Below are positions 4,425-23,700 of a DNA stretch of 28,806 nt, piece by piece. The notes under the pieces were generated by a model that worked only from the letters and a program-made list of their open reading frames with translations, was not told where the DNA came from and ran no database searches. The stretch's first letter is position 1. Every line of letters begins with the position of its first letter. Location of the stretch: positions 1 to 28,806 of IMG/VR virus record IMGVR_UViG_3300046820_000235. The stretch is one strand, 5' to 3'. Source of the DNA: a virus. The position numbers were made by a program, and so were the translations under genes.

Positions 4425-6554
4425 TTATACACCGTAATCTTCCATATCTTGTGGTTCAGCCTTTATACCACCTTTTACCATTTCATTCAAGCTAGTAATG
4501 GCTGACATAATAGCGTTAAGCTGCTCTGTCTGTAGTTTTCCATCAGTTGCTTGTGACTTCATCTCTAGCTCCATCTGTTTCAATTGCAATTCAGCTTCCT
4601 TGATACGGTATTCGCCCTCAAGTTGCATTTGTTTTTGTTGGAACTCTAGTTCTTTACGAGCATTCTCTACTTGCATTTGCTCACGGTCTAGTTGTAGTTT
4701 GGCTTGGTTAGTTTGTGCAGACAATTGAGCCTTTTGTTCTTCTACCCTAGCGTATAACTGCGCTGCCTCTGAGTTAGGGTCAGCCGGTGCTTGGCTTGCT
4801 TGTTGCATTATTTGCTGCTCAACTTCTGGTGTAATCTCATTAATGAATGAAGTTGTGTCCTTGAAGCCAGCCATCTCAATCATACGACCAAGAGTGCTAC
4901 GGTATTGCGTTACAGTCACCAATGGATTGTTAGCACCGTACTTGCCGATGATTTCTTCCTGTTTAGCCATAATCATTTGTAGCATAGCAATCTGCTCTTG
5001 GCGGTTACCGTTGCCTAAACCTACGTTGATTGATACATCGTATAGGTTAGACCATTCACGTGGGTCATAAGATACCCATTTGCCACGCATACGGATTGTC
5101 TTAGCTTGGTTTTGGTATTTGCATAGTAGGTGCAAGATGCCACGGAATAATGATTTGACACCTGTTTCAGCAAAGATACGAGCCATTAGCTCTAGCTTAC
5201 CTGCTGACTGTTGCATCATGGCTGCCACGGCTGTTGCTGTAGTGTTCTGAAGCACGTTAGTATCAAGACCTTGCTGTAGGTCACTAACACCAGTACGTTT
5301 AGCCTGTACACCGTCTAGATATTCCATCATCGGGAATGATTGACCGGCTGTGTTTGCTACCGTTAGTTGGTTTACTGCTTGAGGATTCTTAACACGGATA
5401 ACACCACCGGCAGTAGATGTTAGCAAGTCATCTAGGTTAACTTGACCCTCTACGGCTGTAACACGGGCATTGTTTGTTAGGTATAAGTTGTCTAGCATCT
5501 GACGTAGGATAGTAGACTTGGTTAGTTGTAAGTCCATTGTCCTGTCGGCTAGTGACTGACCAAAGAATTTGTGTGGGATAGGAATCGGGCATACAGAGTG
5601 GAATGGCACGTAGTCGCACTCTTCATTAGATAGGATTTGCTCACCACCGATGATAACCCTGCGTAACTCTAGCAAGCCATTGTCGTTTGTGTCTACCTTG
5701 ATGTAGCACTCAAATATCTCTACCTCTTCCATTGATAGGTCGCTGGACTGTGCATAGTCTGGCATCTCGTCACGACCAAAACGTGCTAAACGCTCTGGTG
5801 AATACTCTAAACGGTCACCGGCTGGGATAGTATCTACGATAGACTTCTCGTAGCCCATAGCAATCAAGTCACCACGAGCAATCATTCTACGGTGCGCTGT
5901 GAATGGTGAGTCCTCAATGGTCTTAGCACGTTTGCTAATTAGGAACTCTTCTGGCGGTACGTTCTCAATAGCGATACGGCTGTCATCTTGGATGCGCTCA
6001 ATCGTTACGTTATGTGTGTTGTAAGGTAAACCATCAATGCCAATAACAATGTCAGTCACTTGCTTGGTAATTTCCCACTCACCAGTCTGCATAATCATGG
6101 CTAACTCGTCATCAGTCAGCCCTTTGTATTTTTCTTTGATGGTGTCCTTCTTCTCTTCCCAGTAGGCTTTAACAACACCGACCTTCTGTAGCAATGCATC
6201 CTTGAACCAGTTGTGTAGGATTAGGAAGCCATCGTTGTCTTTATAGAATACCCAGTTCGCCATGTCACTAGCTTGGTCAGCGAGTTCTTCTTCACCATCT
6301 TTAGTCGGCTCAAAGCGGACTGCATCCTCGCATGATGTGAATACACGGATTAATTGTGGCAATGCACCATCTACGGCTTCAGCTACCTCACCGGTAACTA
6401 CTTGGCTGCGACCTTCTACCTCAGTTCCGTATTTGTCACGGAAGTAGTAGTTCATGGCATCAGCACGTTCTTGAACAGTATCGGACTCTAAGTAGCCAAT
6501 AGCGTTATTGATTTCGTCAGCACATAGTGCCTTTAATTCTTCTTGATTCATCAT
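4425..6554 (-). CDS. Portal protein (P22/SU10-like)
   Basis: This protein of about 709 residues is the dodecameric portal through which DNA is packaged and ejected. The N-terminal 'EELKALCADEINNAIGYLE...RADAMNYYFRDKYGTEVEGRSQVV' and 'EAVDGALPQLIRVFTSCEDAVRFEP' are the recurring opening of this portal family. The body around residues 120-520 holds the clip, wing and stem regions, and a long Gln/Glu-rich coiled coil (about 600-690) suits the barrel or a C-terminal extension. Three in-frame ATGs lie at 6566, 6554 and 6551. The ATG at 6554 overlaps the terminase stop by one base, whereas that at 6566 has its AAGG only one base away, so 6554 (or 6551, MNQEELK) is preferred. Family assignment is strong. 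Confidence 0.92.
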   Translation of the reverse strand: MMNQEELKALCADEINNAIGYLESDTVQERADAMNYYFRDKYGTEVEGRSQVVTGEVAEAVDGALPQLIRVFTSCEDAVRFEPTKDGEEELADQASDMANWVFYKDNDGFLILHNWFKDALLQKVGVVKAYWEEKKDTIKEKYKGLTDDELAMIMQTGEWEITKQVTDIVIGIDGLPYNTHNVTIERIQDDSRIAIENVPPEEFLISKRAKTIEDSPFTAHRRMIARGDLIAMGYEKSIVDTIPAGDRLEYSPERLARFGRDEMPDYAQSSDLSMEEVEIFECYIKVDTNDNGLLELRRVIIGGEQILSNEECDYVPFHSVCPIPIPHKFFGQSLADRTMDLQLTKSTILRQMLDNLYLTNNARVTAVEGQVNLDDLLTSTAGGVIRVKNPQAVNQLTVANTAGQSFPMMEYLDGVQAKRTGVSDLQQGLDTNVLQNTTATAVAAMMQQSAGKLELMARIFAETGVKSLFRGILHLLCKYQNQAKTIRMRGKWVSYDPREWSNLYDVSINVGLGNGNRQEQIAMLQMIMAKQEEIIGKYGANNPLVTVTQYRSTLGRMIEMAGFKDTTSFINEITPEVEQQIMQQASQAPADPNSEAAQLYARVEEQKAQLSAQTNQAKLQLDREQMQVENARKELEFQQKQMQLEGEYRIKEAELQLKQMELEMKSQATDGKLQTEQLNAIMSAITSLNEMVKGGIKAEPQDMEDYGV

Positions 6555-7849
6555 TATACGACCCATGCCTTATTTTGTTGTAATGGTTTAGACCATGTTG
6601 TATCTACTTCTACTAATCCTATTGCCATGTAACGAAAGCTATCTGCAAAGTGTGATGACCAGTCGTGAACTGGCTTATCGTAAAACACGTTCTGCTTCTC
6701 GTTAAACTCACGTCTATAGTTACGCAATGCCACTAGACCGTTCTTTGTGCGCTCCATGTCAAACCAGCATCTAGGCAGCATACGTCTGACTGCTTGAATG
6801 CCATCTGCTATAGATAGGCTTGGTGCTACAGTAACATCTAGTCCAGCTTCCATTAAGACTTCTAACCGGCTGCGCCCTGTGGTCATCTCTCTGACTCTTA
6901 CATCGTGCGGAAGAATCTGCTGACCCTTGTCATAACCATTATCACGTAACCAACTAACATAGTAATCAAGTCCGACTCCGTGGTTCTCTGTGCAATCTAT
7001 TAGCTGTATCTCTTTGCCGACTATCTGCGCTACCCAAATACACGTACTGTCGCTGACACCCAAATCCCAGCTACAAACAATCTTTGCCAGTTCGTCTTTA
7101 GGAATCTTAGTAACTCTATTCTCGTTATCGGCTGCATGTAGTAGTGACCCATAGTAAGCACCTTCTACTGGCGCATCAAAGCTACACTCAAACTCTTGCT
7201 TGTACTTGTCCTCGCCCATCTCGTTCTTAGCACTAGCCAACTCTTGTGGGTCTAGTATGCCAGTATCACTAGCCTTAAACTCTAAGAACTTCCAACCTTC
7301 TGTGACCATTGCACGTTCTTTGAACTCTCTAAAGTGATTGTTGCCTTTAGGAGTACCAATAAACAAACAGAATCCTTTTCTGTCTGCTAGTGCCGGTCTT
7401 ACAATCTCATTCCAAATCTTTGGGTCTTGGTCACCGACCTCGTCTAGCACAACACCATCAAAGTATTGACCTCGTAAGCTGTCACCGTTCTCACTACCGT
7501 ATAAGCTAATACGTCTACCTAAGAAGTCTACACGCAATTCAGCAATGTTGACTGTAGCACCCAATGGTCTTGTATATTCTATAAGGTAATCAAATGCTAC
7601 TCGTTTAGCTTGGGCATACGTTGGTGCAATGTAAGCGTAACGAGGGTTCTTCTGTTCGTTATTTAATGCTGCATTAATAAGATGTAGGATAGCTGAAACA
7701 GTCTTACCCATACGTCTATGTGCAACTACTACAGTAAAGCGATTCTTATTTACCGCTCTATGAATATCTAGCTGAGGTTGTCTTGGTCTGTAACCTAAAT
7801 CTGGTGGTGCTTCCTCAACTTCTTCATACTCTAATACTTCATCAGTCAT
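6554..7849 (-). CDS. terL: Terminase large subunit (packaging ATPase/nuclease)
   Basis: This 431-residue packaging motor shows a Walker A motif at about 41-50 (VVAHRRMGKT), Walker B at 130-137 (FDGVVLDE) and the coupling motif 'FIGTPKG' at 163-169. The C-terminal RNase H-like nuclease has Asp262 in 'CSWDLGVSDST', Asp316 in 'ILPHDV' and a late Asp in 'WSSHFADSFRY'. It drives DNA into the prohead using ATP and cuts the concatemer. The length is at the short end of large terminases but both domains are present. The start ATG overlaps the preceding small gene by eight bases (ATGACTGA) and its end touches the portal start, so translation is probably coupled. Confidence 0.96.
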   Translation of the reverse strand: MTDEVLEYEEVEEAPPDLGYRPRQPQLDIHRAVNKNRFTVVVAHRRMGKTVSAILHLINAALNNEQKNPRYAYIAPTYAQAKRVAFDYLIEYTRPLGATVNIAELRVDFLGRRISLYGSENGDSLRGQYFDGVVLDEVGDQDPKIWNEIVRPALADRKGFCLFIGTPKGNNHFREFKERAMVTEGWKFLEFKASDTGILDPQELASAKNEMGEDKYKQEFECSFDAPVEGAYYGSLLHAADNENRVTKIPKDELAKIVCSWDLGVSDSTCIWVAQIVGKEIQLIDCTENHGVGLDYYVSWLRDNGYDKGQQILPHDVRVREMTTGRSRLEVLMEAGLDVTVAPSLSIADGIQAVRRMLPRCWFDMERTKNGLVALRNYRREFNEKQNVFYDKPVHDWSSHFADSFRYMAIGLVEVDTTWSKPLQQNKAWVV

Positions 7850-10056: not shown

Positions 10057-10848
10057 TTACGTGACTATATCATATCCTTTACTTTGCGTCAATACATCAC
10101 CAATACGTGCTTTTGCTATGTCTAAATACTCTTGGCTAATCTCTATGCCAATAAAGTTTCGGTTTAATTGTTTAGCCATTTTACCTGTCGTTCCGCTTCC
10201 CATAAAACAATCTAATATTGTATCGCCTTCATTTGACCATGAAATAATGTGGTCATGTGCTAATTTTTCTGGAAATGGTGCTGGATGTCCTTTATATCCA
10301 CTTTGGCTTTCTTTCCAAATATTACTTCTCATTCTGTATTCAGACGATTCAATTAACTTAGTTTTGCCATTATATTTTCCATTATTTTTAGTTTTAATTT
10401 TACATTTAATATTAATTAATTTTCCTACTGATTTATTTGGAATATCAAATATTGGATTATGTGTATTTATAATGCCTTTTGTAAATACAAACATATATTC
10501 AAATTGTTGTTTATATCTTTTTGCATTTATATGATGTGGAAATATTGCTGTTTTCTCCCAAATCATTGTGTCATGCAAATTAAAGCCACATTCTATAAAA
10601 TACAATGCTTGTCTAAATGATGTGCCTGTCTCACTACCTTTAACCGTAGCATCGCCAACAATCCACACGACTACACCACCATCTTTTGTAACACGATATA
10701 ACTCTTGCGCTATGCCTTCAAAGTCAAAAGTAAATCCATTGTATGTGCGTAGGTTGTCGTAAGGTGGACTAGTAACTGTTAAATCAATGCTATTATTTTC
10801 CATTAACTTCATTATTTCTAAGCAATCACCCAATCTTAAATCAATCAT
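10057..10848 (-). CDS. DNA methyltransferase, beta class (N4-cytosine or N6-adenine)
   Basis: This 263-residue enzyme transfers a methyl group from S-adenosylmethionine to an amino group of a DNA base. The catalytic motif TSPPY is at 26-30 and the cofactor-binding motif DCFMGSGTT at 213-221. The order catalytic-then-cofactor defines the beta class. The middle (about 130-185), 'SVGKLINIKCKIKTKNNGKYNGK' (split as SVGKLINIKCKI / KTKNNGKYNGK), is Lys/Asn-rich and strongly AT-coded and is probably the target-recognition region. AGGA precedes the ATG. It is an orphan, as no restriction enzyme partner is visible, and it would protect phage DNA or alter host methylation. Its AT-rich middle and its place in the pqqA island suggest acquisition. 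Confidence 0.93.
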   Translation of the reverse strand: MIDLRLGDCLEIMKLMENNSIDLTVTSPPYDNLRTYNGFTFDFEGIAQELYRVTKDGGVVVWIVGDATVKGSETGTSFRQALYFIECGFNLHDTMIWEKTAIFPHHINAKRYKQQFEYMFVFTKGIINTHNPIFDIPNKSVGKLINIKCKIKTKNNGKYNGKTKLIESSEYRMRSNIWKESQSGYKGHPAPFPEKLAHDHIISWSNEGDTILDCFMGSGTTGKMAKQLNRNFIGIEISQEYLDIAKARIGDVLTQSKGYDIVT

Positions 10849-10914: not shown

Positions 10915-10928
10915 AAGCAATCTTGCTT
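10915..10928 (+). promoter_or_regulatory. Perfect palindrome in the pqqA leader
   Basis: AAGCAATCTTGCTT is a self-complementary 14-base sequence lying 11 bases before the ribosome binding site AAGGA (10939-10943) of pqqA. It can fold as a five-pair hairpin or serve as an operator. No convincing sigma70 promoter with both boxes was found in 10849-10950; TATAAC at 10888-10893 is the best -10 candidate but lacks a good -35 box. The pqqA promoter therefore remains unplaced. Confidence 0.35.
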
Positions 10929-10951
10929 AGTACAGATTAAGGACTAATATC

Positions 10952-11023
10952 ATGTGGACAACTCCAGCAGCTACAGAAATGCGTTTTGGCTTTGAAGTAA
11001 CTATGTACGTAATGAACAAGTAA
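10952..11023 (+). CDS. pqqA: PQQ precursor peptide PqqA (phage-borne)
   Basis: This 23-codon gene starts MWTTPAATEMRFGFEVTM and ends YVMNK. It matches PqqA in length, in the opening M-W-T-x-P, in R11-x-G13, and in the diagnostic E15-V-T-x-Y19, where Glu15 and Tyr19 provide every ring atom of pyrroloquinoline quinone. In cells, the radical-SAM enzyme PqqE with chaperone PqqD joins these two side chains, then protease PqqF/G, PqqB and PqqC finish the cofactor. PQQ serves methanol dehydrogenase in the periplasm. A strong AAGGA lies eight bases before the ATG and a terminator follows. The gene stands alone on the plus strand between two leftward genes and no other pqq gene is visible, so it must rely on host enzymes. 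A decoy role, or a chance match, cannot be excluded, though the whole-length match makes chance unlikely. Confidence 0.93.
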   Translation: MWTTPAATEMRFGFEVTMYVMNK

Positions 11024-11043
11024 CATATTTGTTACTACTCAAT

Positions 11044-11079
11044 AGCCGGTCAGGATTTCTCTTGACTGGCTAATCTTTT
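11044..11079 (+). terminator. Rho-independent terminator after pqqA
   Basis: AGCCGGTCA (11044-11052) pairs with TGACTGGCT (11063-11071) as a nine-pair stem with one G-T wobble and a ten-base loop, followed by AATCTTTT. It acts on plus-strand transcripts and ends pqqA mRNA 20 bases after its stop. A second small hairpin, GTAACA-TATT-TGTTAC (11019-11034), overlaps the pqqA stop. The terminator's right part lies within the last codons of the leftward gene that ends at 11050, so the DNA serves both strands. Confidence 0.75.
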
Positions 11080-11283
11080 AAGTTCTGCATTAGCATAGAA
11101 TAGTATCTTTTTAATTCCCCTTATTTCGTCACAATGTGATGCTTGACCATAACGGTAGCACTCACGAAATATCTCACCGATTTGTGCGTTCATATTCTTT
11201 GCGCTAATCAAGTCTTGCAACTCACTAGCATTATTTGGCAACTCGTAGTAGCTTGCGCTTGAACCATCGCTAGTAACTCTCAT
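11050..11283 (-). CDS. Small phage protein, DUF3310-like helical family
   Basis: The protein has 77 residues from ATG at 11283 (MRVTSDGSS...); the frame extends upstream to a TTG, but this ATG overlaps the previous stop (TAATG). The motif 'ELPNNASELQDLISAKNMNAQIGEIFRECYRYG' (split as ELPNNASELQDLISAKNM / NAQIGEIFRECYRYG) followed by 'IRGIKKILFYANAELKRL' is the pattern of a helical family seen in many phages: a 'ELQDLI' helix, then 'N-I-F-K-x-x-Y-R-x-G', then 'D-L-x-K-I-x-x-F'. It is related in outline to DUF3310-type proteins. Function is not established. Its last codons share DNA with the pqqA terminator on the other strand. Confidence 0.65.
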   Translation of the reverse strand: MRVTSDGSSASYYELPNNASELQDLISAKNMNAQIGEIFRECYRYGQASHCDEIRGIKKILFYANAELKRLASQEKS

Positions 11284-11885
11284 TACCAATCACTCCCTGA
11301 CATTGTTGCACCACTTGTATAGTTCTTAGGTGATTTCATGTTAGCTCGGTCTATTGCACGTTGAGTCATATATAGATTGCTTAATTTTCTGTCATCAAAA
11401 TTAATGACCCTAGCACCTTCAATTGTTGGTGTATTCTCGCTAACTTTAGTTTTGTACTTCTTAGGTGATACATACTCTAATGCATCCTCGTAGGTCATTA
11501 GCTTGGTAGTGACAAAGCTGTAATATTTACGTGTGCCGGTGTCGCTAACAATAATGCTTTTCATAAAGCCTCTAGCCATTAAGCTCTTGATGGTATTAGA
11601 TGCAGTATTCTTGTCATCATCTAATTGTTGCTTCATGTCTGTTAAAGTCTTAGGCAATACGCAAAACTCTAGGTAGACGTTATATCTAGCAACCATCTCT
11701 TTTGCCATCCTGTCTAGCTTTGCTTCTTGTTGTGCGTACGAGTCTGCTAGTTTTTTATCTCTATATGCTTGCTCTGCTGCCTTTGCTTCTTCTTGGGTCT
11801 TGTAGTCACCTATGTGGATAATCTGACAGTCTGAATCCCTAGCTGTTACTACCCATGCATCTACTTTTTTACGAAAGACAATCAT
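11283..11885 (-). CDS. DNA-binding protein, AP2-like N-terminus plus winged helix
   Basis: The protein has 200 residues. The first about 50 (DAWVVTARDSDCQIIHIGDYKTQEEAKAAEQAY, split here as DAWVVTARDSDCQIIHIGDY / KTQEEAKAAEQAY) look like an AP2 or integrase-type three-strand DNA-binding domain ending in a helix. Residues 70-130 form a winged-helix candidate: 'YNVYLEFCVLPKTLTDMKQQL' then 'ASNTIKSLMARGFMKSI' and a beta wing 'TRKYYSFVTT'. The C-terminal 70 residues are basic and polar. It is probably a regulator of the operon in which it is the second-to-last gene. The start has AAAGG and overlaps the upstream stop by four bases (ATGA). Fold reading is from pattern only. Confidence 0.6.
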   Translation of the reverse strand: MIVFRKKVDAWVVTARDSDCQIIHIGDYKTQEEAKAAEQAYRDKKLADSYAQQEAKLDRMAKEMVARYNVYLEFCVLPKTLTDMKQQLDDDKNTASNTIKSLMARGFMKSIIVSDTGTRKYYSFVTTKLMTYEDALEYVSPKKYKTKVSENTPTIEGARVINFDDRKLSNLYMTQRAIDRANMKSPKNYTSGATMSGSDW

Positions 11886-21700: not shown

Positions 21701-22171
21701 TTAATTGCCTAACGGGTTGCTGGTAGCACGTTTAAGTGCTTTAAGTTGTGATTCAATGCCTTCACGGGTAGCTTTCATTTCCTCACGAACACCTAGTAAA
21801 GATGCTGAAGTTTCACGCACGTTGCCGTTAGTGGTAGCCTTGGCTTCATTCGCTGTACCGATAGCGTTAGATACTTTCTCTTGCATAGATACAAGTTGAT
21901 TAGATGTAGTCACCATAGAGTCTTTAACTACATTGACTGAGGCTTGTTGTGCAGATAATTGAACCTTTAACGCATTGACCTCTGCTCGTAACTCTGCATC
22001 GTCATAAGGCTTTGCTGCCTCAATTGCTTCAGTCGCAGCTATAACACGATTGTAAGTCGTTATCCCTACGTAACCTGTCCCACCTATCGCTGGCAAGATT
22101 ATTGAAAGCGTCAGAAATATTGCTTTCGGTGATAAGTTGGAGTAAGACTCCTTGATTTCCTCTAAGCTCAT
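21701..22171 (-). CDS. Membrane-anchored coiled-coil protein in the lysis cluster
   Basis: The ATG at 22171 (MSLEEIKESYSNLSPKAIFL) has AGGAG seven bases upstream, so the longer frame to 22201 is not used; the product is 156 residues. One membrane helix lies at about 17-40 (AIFLTLSIILPAIGGTGYVG). It is followed by a long polar coiled coil (EAKPYDDAELRAEVNALKVQL ... SNAIGTANEAKATTNGNV). The shape is that of an inner-membrane spanin-like or holin-associated protein, with the coil in the periplasm. Its first 143 bases overlap, in another frame, the end of the secreted repeat protein gene. Confidence 0.65.
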   Translation of the reverse strand: MSLEEIKESYSNLSPKAIFLTLSIILPAIGGTGYVGITTYNRVIAATEAIEAAKPYDDAELRAEVNALKVQLSAQQASVNVVKDSMVTTSNQLVSMQEKVSNAIGTANEAKATTNGNVRETSASLLGVREEMKATREGIESQLKALKRATSNPLGN

Positions 22172-23288
22172 ACGGTAACTCCTGCTGGTATGCCAATGCA
22201 TCGTTCAATTGAATCTCCTGAGTTTGCATCGGTCGGTTTAAAATCTCTAGGCTCATCACTAACCCGAACCCCTGTACTAACGTCTTCCCTACCGGCACTT
22301 GTACTGGCGAGGTATTCTGCGTATTCCCTGTTGAGGATGTCGTTGGCGCACTCACGGCTGGTTGTGATGGTTGTGTACTTGTGCTTCCTGACGAGGCTGT
22401 TGGCGGTGGTGCTGCTTCTGCCTTTGGAGCTTCCGGTGGTGGAGCTTCTGCTGGAGGCGGTGCTTCCGGTGGAGGTGGCTCTGGTGGTTGCTCTGCTGGA
22501 GGCTCTGGCGCAGGTGGTGGCGATGCTGGTAGACTCAACGGACTCGCTGGGTTTACCGGACTGGTCATATTCGTTGGATTTGTTTGACTCTTTACGCAAG
22601 TGTCTTGTGACTGAGTCCAATCGCTCCATAGCGGTTCGCTGTATGGTGTGGAGCAGACAGAAGTCCTGTTTTCTGTTATTGAGCCAATGAAGCCATCTTG
22701 ACATGAAAGAGTCCTAATTTGAGTTGATGTTAAACAGGTTGCTGGATTTGGTGTGCATGAATTTGACACCGTTGTCCATATGCCTTCCGTTGGTTGTCCA
22801 TACGGGTCTGAGCAAGTATTGGTCTTTGTTTGCTGTATTGAGCCAGAGAAGTTTTGCGGACATACTAAATTTTGACTTTCAACAGTTGTTTGACACGTTG
22901 GAGGAGCTGGCTGACAAGAGTTTGATATTTCAAACCATCCTGAGTCAACATGGCTGCCGTATGGGTCTGGACAGTTTTGCTCCCTTTTGTACGTGACCGA
23001 GCCGATTTGGTTATCCCCACAGGTTTGCCTTTCTTCTGTTTCTGCGCTGTAGGTGCAGGTTGGTTGCGGTGGAGGAGGTGGCGGTGGAGCAGGTTGACCA
23101 CACTCAGGTATATTAGGGAAAAGCTGACACGCAAGTTGCTGACAAGATTCCATAGTCGTACCTTGAGCCACACCAAGGCTTGAGTACACCGGCATATTAT
23201 TTTCCCAAGCAGTTGCATAACAGTATGCACTAGCATCATTACTCTTTAGAATTAGGCAGAGGAGTAATAAGGACAAAATCCTTACCAT
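22029..23288 (-). CDS. Secreted protein with three Cys-rich repeats and Pro-rich linker
   Basis: The ATG at 23288 (MVRILSLLLLCLILKSNDAS) with GAGGAA upstream gives 419 residues. The signal peptide ends near residue 21 (ASA-YC). A Cys-bearing N-domain precedes a Pro-8 run, then three about 53-residue repeats at 78-125, 132-178 and 185-231. Each has C...G-x-I/V-x...R/K/T...C-x-x-P-Y-x...W...S-x-(S/D)-(S/T)-C, similar in outline to thrombospondin-like modules. Residues 255-320 are a P/A/E-rich linker, followed by a C-terminal domain. It may be a cell-surface adhesin or exclusion factor, or a virion part. Its last 143 bases overlap the membrane-anchored coiled-coil gene in another frame. Confidence 0.65.
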   Translation of the reverse strand: MVRILSLLLLCLILKSNDASAYCYATAWENNMPVYSSLGVAQGTTMESCQQLACQLFPNIPECGQPAPPPPPPPQPTCTYSAETEERQTCGDNQIGSVTYKREQNCPDPYGSHVDSGWFEISNSCQPAPPTCQTTVESQNLVCPQNFSGSIQQTKTNTCSDPYGQPTEGIWTTVSNSCTPNPATCLTSTQIRTLSCQDGFIGSITENRTSVCSTPYSEPLWSDWTQSQDTCVKSQTNPTNMTSPVNPASPLSLPASPPPAPEPPAEQPPEPPPPEAPPPAEAPPPEAPKAEAAPPPTASSGSTSTQPSQPAVSAPTTSSTGNTQNTSPVQVPVGKTLVQGFGLVMSLEILNRPMQTQEIQLNDALAYQQELPYELRGNQGVLLQLITESNISDAFNNLASDRWDRLRRDNDLQSCYSCD

Positions 23289-23700
23289 ATATTTCCTCAA
23301 ACCATGTTGGATGTAAGTCATACCAAGCCTTTCTAGCTGCATCACCAATAGCACCACCTATAGGACAAGGTGAACCAGACATTTCCATAGCAACCCAGTT
23401 TTCATGGTTGGCTGCACAGGCTAACGATACTGCTGCTACCTTTAGACCACTATCACTTAGGAACTTAGCCCAGCGTAACTTAACGCAGTTACTATCTGTT
23501 ACCATTGTGCCACCGGCTACAGAAAATATACCACCATTGACAGCACCGCTAATACCAATACTACAGACATCTTGGCTAAAGGCTGACATGGATGGAGCCA
23601 TAGCACTAGGAACTGGCTGCCCTTTGTAATTTATCGTGGTTTCATCGGCATAAACTGTAGTTACAAAGAATAAAGTAATAAAAAGTAATATATGTTTCAT
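23239..23700 (-). CDS. Secreted phage protein of unknown function
   Basis: The 153-residue product begins with a clear signal peptide (MKHILLFITLFFVTTVYADE, cleavage near ADE). The mature part holds Cys in 'QDVCSIGISGAVNGGIFSVA', 'SNCVKLRWAKFLSDSGLK', 'VSLACAANHENWVAMEMSGS' and 'PCPIGGAIGDAARKAWYD', a pattern I associate with conserved phage proteins of unknown role. Four Cys may form two disulfide bonds in the periplasm. The start overlaps the preceding stop by one base and its end overlaps the repeat-protein gene by 50 bases, so the two secreted proteins are probably made together. Confidence 0.7.
   Translation of the reverse strand: MKHILLFITLFFVTTVYADETTINYKGQPVPSAMAPSMSAFSQDVCSIGISGAVNGGIFSVAGGTMVTDSNCVKLRWAKFLSDSGLKVAAVSLACAANHENWVAMEMSGSPCPIGGAIGDAARKAWYDLHPTWFEEIYGKDFVLITPLPNSKE

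Follow-up and report, generated by a model that had tools for sequence, protein, structure and literature searches.

A lone pqqA gene in a phage genome, and what it may supply to a methylotrophic host

Why would a small tailed phage carry a gene for PqqA, the peptide precursor of PQQ, and none of the enzymes that complete the cofactor? The question is raised by a 23-codon plus-strand gene in the window, by which we mean the whole stretch of DNA analysed, an entire IMG/VR record of 28.8 kb. We consider it likely that the gene encodes a functional PqqA, acquired from a host of the Methylophilales and maintained by selection, which supplies the consumed substrate for host PQQ synthesis; expression, conversion and benefit are inferred.

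The gene, its signals and its genome

The gene (Table 1) translates as MWTTPAATEMRFGFEVTMYVMNK, followed by a stop codon. A sequence-only reading had taken this to be a full-length PqqA, and the profile searches bear this out: the peptide matches the whole 19-position Pfam PqqA profile (PF08042; E 3e-10, 40.3 bits against a cut-off of 21.1) and the NCBIfam equivalog TIGR02107 (E 5.6e-10, 38.8 bits against a cut-off of 20). A degenerate PqqA DNA pattern has a single match in the window, and 100 dinucleotide shuffles gave none. The Glu and Tyr of the ExxxY motif, three residues apart and crosslinked on the way to PQQ, are present as E15 and Y19. PHROGs offered no PqqA family for the window peptide.

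The ribosome-binding site had been called strong; TAAGGA is indeed there and is a good site, but not an exceptional one, and an AGGA, GGAG or GAGG site is found in 94 of 99 non-redundant phage pqqA leaders. No match to a sigma-70 promoter was found in the window. The inverted repeat in the leader may form a hairpin close to the 5' end of the mRNA, or may serve as an operator. In the leaders, at about -60 to -12, perfect 6-bp inverted repeats that differ in sequence occur in 37% of the 99 from phages versus 13% of shuffles; TATAAT appears in 30 of the 99, often just before the inverted repeat, and in host pqqA leaders the inverted-repeat enrichment is weaker than in those of phages. We do not claim a conserved RNA leader element before phage pqqA, as the hairpin enrichment is only modest. 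Downstream, the hairpin listed in Table 1 is the one terminator found in a search of the window (0.1 expected), and it shares bases with the 3' end of the convergent gene on the minus strand.

Table 1. Features around pqqA in the window
Feature	Position	Strand	Basis or remark
Terminase large subunit	6554..7849	-	PHROG 2, E 1e-34
DNA methyltransferase, upstream neighbour of pqqA	10057..10848	-	PHROG 67, E 2.7e-66
Leader inverted repeat AAGCAA-TC-TTGCTT	10915..10928	+	Sequence; role unproven
Ribosome-binding site TAAGGA, ending 8 nt before ATG	10938..10943	+	Sequence
pqqA, PQQ precursor peptide MWTTPAATEMRFGFEVTMYVMNK	10952..11023	+	PqqA profiles; E15 and Y19 become PQQ
Terminator hairpin TAGCCGGTCAGGATTTCTCTTGACTGGCTA, 13 pairs, then ATCTTTT	11043..11072	+	-20.4 kcal/mol, z -5.9
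Small phage gene, downstream neighbour of pqqA	11050..11289	-	Weak match to a PHROG annotated as kinase

PHROGs matches identify terminase, portal, major capsid, endolysin, Erf-type annealing protein and SSB genes in the window, which is probably an incomplete genome, since close relatives reach 35-36 kb. A minus-strand gene at 22029-23357, without a PHROGs match, encodes a protein of 442 aa that looks secreted, with repeats containing Cys and a long stretch rich in Pro, Glu and Ala. The pqqA coding DNA is identical at 72 of 72 nt to a pqqA copy of Ca. Methylopumilus universalis MMS-RIV-52, and the peptide is, letter for letter, the commonest Methylophilaceae PqqA allele retrieved (102 of 122 host copies). 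Thus the window shares with Methylophilaceae PqqA (PF08042/TIGR02107) the same 23 residues and the E15/Y19 core, but its copy is phage-encoded, runs opposite to its neighbours, has a leader and terminator unlike those of the host, and stands without pqqB-E. Among annotated records, OM43 phage Venkman and Manatee Spring podovirus have the nearest terminases, at 63%. Because of this kinship and the identity of pqqA with the Ca. Methylopumilus copy, we infer that the host is most likely a freshwater methylotroph of the LD28/Methylopumilus type, in line with the methylotroph first suggested.

An auxiliary metabolic gene should be a host-type metabolic gene in a genuine virus genome, and the terminase, portal and capsid genes, together with the isolated phages described below, satisfy this. 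We give next to no weight to the possibility that the locus is an artefact, whether host DNA wrongly binned as viral or a short ORF arisen by chance. Mislabelling does happen, as one "Acinetobacter phage" contig proved to be a bacterial pqqABCDE region. However, pqqA is present in the genomes of isolated phages, the window also has an endolysin gene beside its structural and packaging genes, the host pqqA loci that we fetched have no more than 150 bp in common with any viral locus, and the E-values exclude chance. For the window and the isolates, an artefact is already refuted.

The absence of the PqqB, C, D and E genes from the window also held. Searches by tblastn gave no match to pqqB, C, D or E there, and a profile search found no PqqE in the window record or in three near-complete relatives (G011, G013 and G018). 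Of the virus records with pqqA, 49 were examined, six of which came from the annotated phage collection: none had a PqqE above the cut-off, and one had a methanol dehydrogenase. Across 1.93 Mb of viral DNA there was again no match to pqqB, C, D or E, while 28 host loci scored. One 72-kb viral record (L166 in G039) has pqqA together with a methanol dehydrogenase-type gene, a second case beside that of Lake Baikal discussed below; its pqqA is flanked by genes for a thioredoxin-like and a periplasmic-looking protein, and the wholly viral nature of this contig is not established.

Carriers of pqqA and the placement of the gene

Searching 50,697 phage records by tblastn yielded 12 with pqqA, namely P19250A, MEP301, Venkman, MEP401, MEP402, four Melnitz records, Manatee Spring podovirus and two "Acinetobacter phage" contigs; a divergent PqqA query returned the same 12. 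Nine of these are isolated Methylophilales phages of several kinds (P19250A, Venkman, MEP301, MEP401/402 and Melnitz). The count leaves out HIM624-A, MEP431-434 and other Methylophilales phage names, and we do not claim that every cultured phage carries the gene. Setting aside the contigs labelled Acinetobacter phage, of which one was inspected and is bacterial, the carriers among these records are phages of methylotrophs only. "Acinetobacter phage MD-2021a" was rejected as a phage of another host: the inspected contig (CAKLQF020000010.1, L312) has bacterial pqqBCDE, polyphosphate kinase and peptidase genes at pqqA, and is probably a mislabelled chromosomal contig.

It had been predicted that so short a gene would be easily missed, and so it was: pqqA is named as such in none of the 10 phage records that carry it, mostly for want of any gene call. 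In Melnitz and Manatee Spring podovirus the annotated gene at the site is on the opposite strand. These hypothetical proteins (L309 3961-4056 in Melnitz-1 and L313 2067-2195 in Manatee Spring podovirus) are probably miscalls.

A pattern scan of IMG/VR found at least 120 contigs with pqqA. The IMG/VR contigs among the matches listed, together with the window and six phage records, fall into about 25 gene-context groups. Four viral contigs (L147, L150, L204 and L125) have PqqA types unlike those of Methylophilales (MKWETPSFEDLRFGFEVTMYINASN, MKWSKPTYQKLRLGFEVTMYFKQV); they are possibly phages of methanotrophs or of other PQQ producers, and their hosts are undetermined.

The placement of the gene differs among groups. 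In the broad group of the window, pqqA is mostly a separate cassette that runs against the direction of both neighbours. In L167, L171, L190, L203, L206, L227 and others it comes directly after the major capsid gene and is read the same way; in L150 and L202 it likewise lies behind a major capsid gene, of a different capsid family, and in L220 behind a T4-type capsid gene. Since capsid genes give rise to some of the most abundant transcripts of an infection, the position behind such a gene suggests high, late expression of pqqA, an inference from gene order.

This placement bears on whether pqqA might serve the host, through long-lasting or lysogenic infection or as a mobile copy that raises the dose, instead of lytic growth. 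Hosts often gain extra pqqA copies (PMC4109929), and phages could be one route. Nonetheless, a PHROGs search with 20 window proteins turned up no integrase, isolates of several kinds of phage carry the gene, and its place in the late capsid operon of several lineages speaks for productive infection. We regard such a benefit to the host as quite unlikely to be the reason for the gene, and prefer a supply of substrate during lytic growth.

Selection on the peptide

The first IMG/VR scan was rejected as evidence that E15 and Y19 are conserved, since its pattern required both residues. Conservation was tested instead in three sets selected without regard to these two residues: relatives found with the window terminase as query, and thus independently of pqqA; contigs chosen by the N-terminal half of the peptide only; and relatives of the capsid. 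Across the three sets combined, all 155 copies have both E15 and Y19.

Among the terminase relatives, pqqA lies upstream of the terminase and on the opposite strand in 24 loci, with terminase divergence of up to about 13%; the position in related phages is conserved. Six of the seven terminase relatives of 34 kb or more carry it, one at a different place. Counting the window, W, P, R, G, E, V, T and Y stand at the conserved places in 25 of 25 copies, and these residues are retained even in alleles such as MWTSPAATEHRIGFEVTAYIMTR, behind the same leader as ordinary alleles. This suggests, on sequence grounds, that the coding part of pqqA is exchanged within a fixed cassette among these relatives, perhaps to match different hosts. 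The shared leader extends about 60 nt upstream when the diverged alleles of L257, L278, L243 and L252 are compared with those of L248 and L280.

In the contigs chosen by the N-terminal half, E15, Y19 and the length of 23 aa are each kept in 120 of 120, and the 107 distinct coding sequences give a dN/dS of 0.034 over codons 12-23; pqqA in the terminase set gives 0.18. No broken copy was seen in either set. Neither loss of the frame nor loss of the Glu/Tyr pair, either of which would have told against the identification, was seen in the related copies examined. Among the capsid relatives pqqA occurs in 10 of 160, with Glu and Tyr in all 10; so few carriers would be expected if only infectors of methylotrophs carry the gene, although this is inferred and the other hosts are unknown. 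As far as comparison of sequences can establish it, these data show strong purifying selection on the frame, length and Glu15/Tyr19 of phage pqqA across many phage lineages, and purifying selection within viruses is a further mark of an auxiliary metabolic gene. Repeated uptake of host alleles that were themselves under selection could account for part of the low dN/dS.

Selection of this kind is hard to square with a mere passenger, a host gene recently captured and without function in the phage. The identity of the coding sequence to the host copy is compatible with recent capture. However, the same position is held across the 24 terminase relatives despite their divergence, dN/dS is 0.03-0.18 with no broken copy seen, and the gene has its own leader and terminator, unlike the host's, in many independent contexts. 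We therefore think it highly improbable that pqqA is only a passenger.

The sequence-only reading had also offered a decoy, a phage peptide that occupies PqqD, PqqE or the protease, blocks host PQQ synthesis and diverts SAM or reducing power. PqqA binds PqqD tightly (Kd 0.39 uM; PMC10906245), such that an excess could titrate PqqD, and some diverged alleles exist (MWTSPAATEHRIGFEVTAYIMTR). Yet a decoy has no need of both reactive residues, and a copy with Glu/Tyr lost or relaxed and the leader part kept was found in 0 of 155; E15 and Y19 persist throughout although other positions vary, which disfavours this explanation. In addition, the window peptide is identical to host PqqA and is thus a substrate, and a phage should itself suffer if the chief energy pathway of its obligately methylotrophic host were blocked. 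A decoy is in our judgement improbable, and we return to PqqA as a supplied substrate.

Supply of a consumed substrate

PqqE, with PqqD, joins the Glu and Tyr of PqqA, after which a protease, PqqB and PqqC complete PQQ (PMC10906245). In an infected cell, we infer, phage pqqA would be expressed, host PqqD and PqqE would crosslink Glu15 to Tyr19 of the phage peptide, and the host protease, PqqB and PqqC would finish the cofactor. Since the window peptide has the sequence of host PqqA, its acceptance by the host enzymes is expected, though not measured. PqqA is the sole component spent, one per PQQ, while PqqB-E act repeatedly; hence, once host expression stops, PqqA would be exhausted before PqqB-E. 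Replacing it may keep the PQQ-dependent methanol dehydrogenase (XoxF/MxaF) active, and with it energy and carbon for an obligate methylotroph, at a coding cost of 72 bases.

Several observations bear on the supply of PqqA as a bottleneck. A cell extract given PqqA alone made PQQ with 70-80% conversion, according to work cited in PMC9851590. All of 80 Methylophilaceae genomes have pqqA, in 1-12 copies (median 4), and a single pqqBCDE set was reported in nearly all genomes examined (PMC4109929); the Methylophilaceae themselves raise pqqA dosage. On the other hand, raising pqqAB alone in Acetobacter gave only 29% more PQQ, while the whole cluster gave an eightfold increase (PMC7936290), and PqqA is therefore not limiting in every organism. 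The main weakness of the supply model is that methanol dehydrogenase made before infection is already loaded with PQQ, and PQQ limitation has not been shown.

A viral pqqA is not without precedent. Lake Baikal VP_266, reported in 2020, has pqqA beside methanol dehydrogenase (Coutinho et al. 2020, PMC7678222); that virus, too, was assigned to Methylophilaceae and proposed to support methanol oxidation, but it is a T4-like contig with methanol dehydrogenase, whereas the window is a small tailed phage with a lone pqqA. The same study stated that P19250A encodes none of its auxiliary metabolic genes, yet P19250A has an unannotated pqqA whose protein is identical to that of the window. In a reservoir study of 2026, pqqA figures in the list of viral genes (PMC13188868). 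We found no mention of pqqA in a 2024 survey of viral methane-metabolism genes, nor in the papers on Venkman, Melnitz, MEP401/402 and MEP301, and the literature searched described no lone-substrate pattern, no pqqA in cultured phages of several kinds, no selection on the reactive pair and no position behind capsid genes. What appears to be new is the supply of the substrate gene alone, how widely this occurs, and the overlooked genes in cultured phages. Cyanophage psbA and methanotroph-phage pmoC (PMC7674155) are similar in that one limiting component is supplied and host energy metabolism is kept running; however, these encode subunits of enzymes or complexes, whereas pqqA encodes a peptide substrate that is consumed in becoming a cofactor.

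We also propose, with only modest assurance, that unrelated phages of methylotrophs convergently adopted pqqA as substrate only, some of them in the capsid operon, with the enzymes left to the host, and that the gene is near-universal and unannotated in Methylophilales phages. Cultured and abundant phages gain from these findings a testable metabolic gene absent from their published descriptions, and a class of metabolic genes of 20-25 codons is being missed by gene callers. A lone pqqA can mark viruses of methylotrophs and bears on viral effects on methanol turnover in lakes and seas. For the biology of infection, the finding suggests that a cofactor precursor, of which one peptide is spent per product, runs short in the infected methylotroph.
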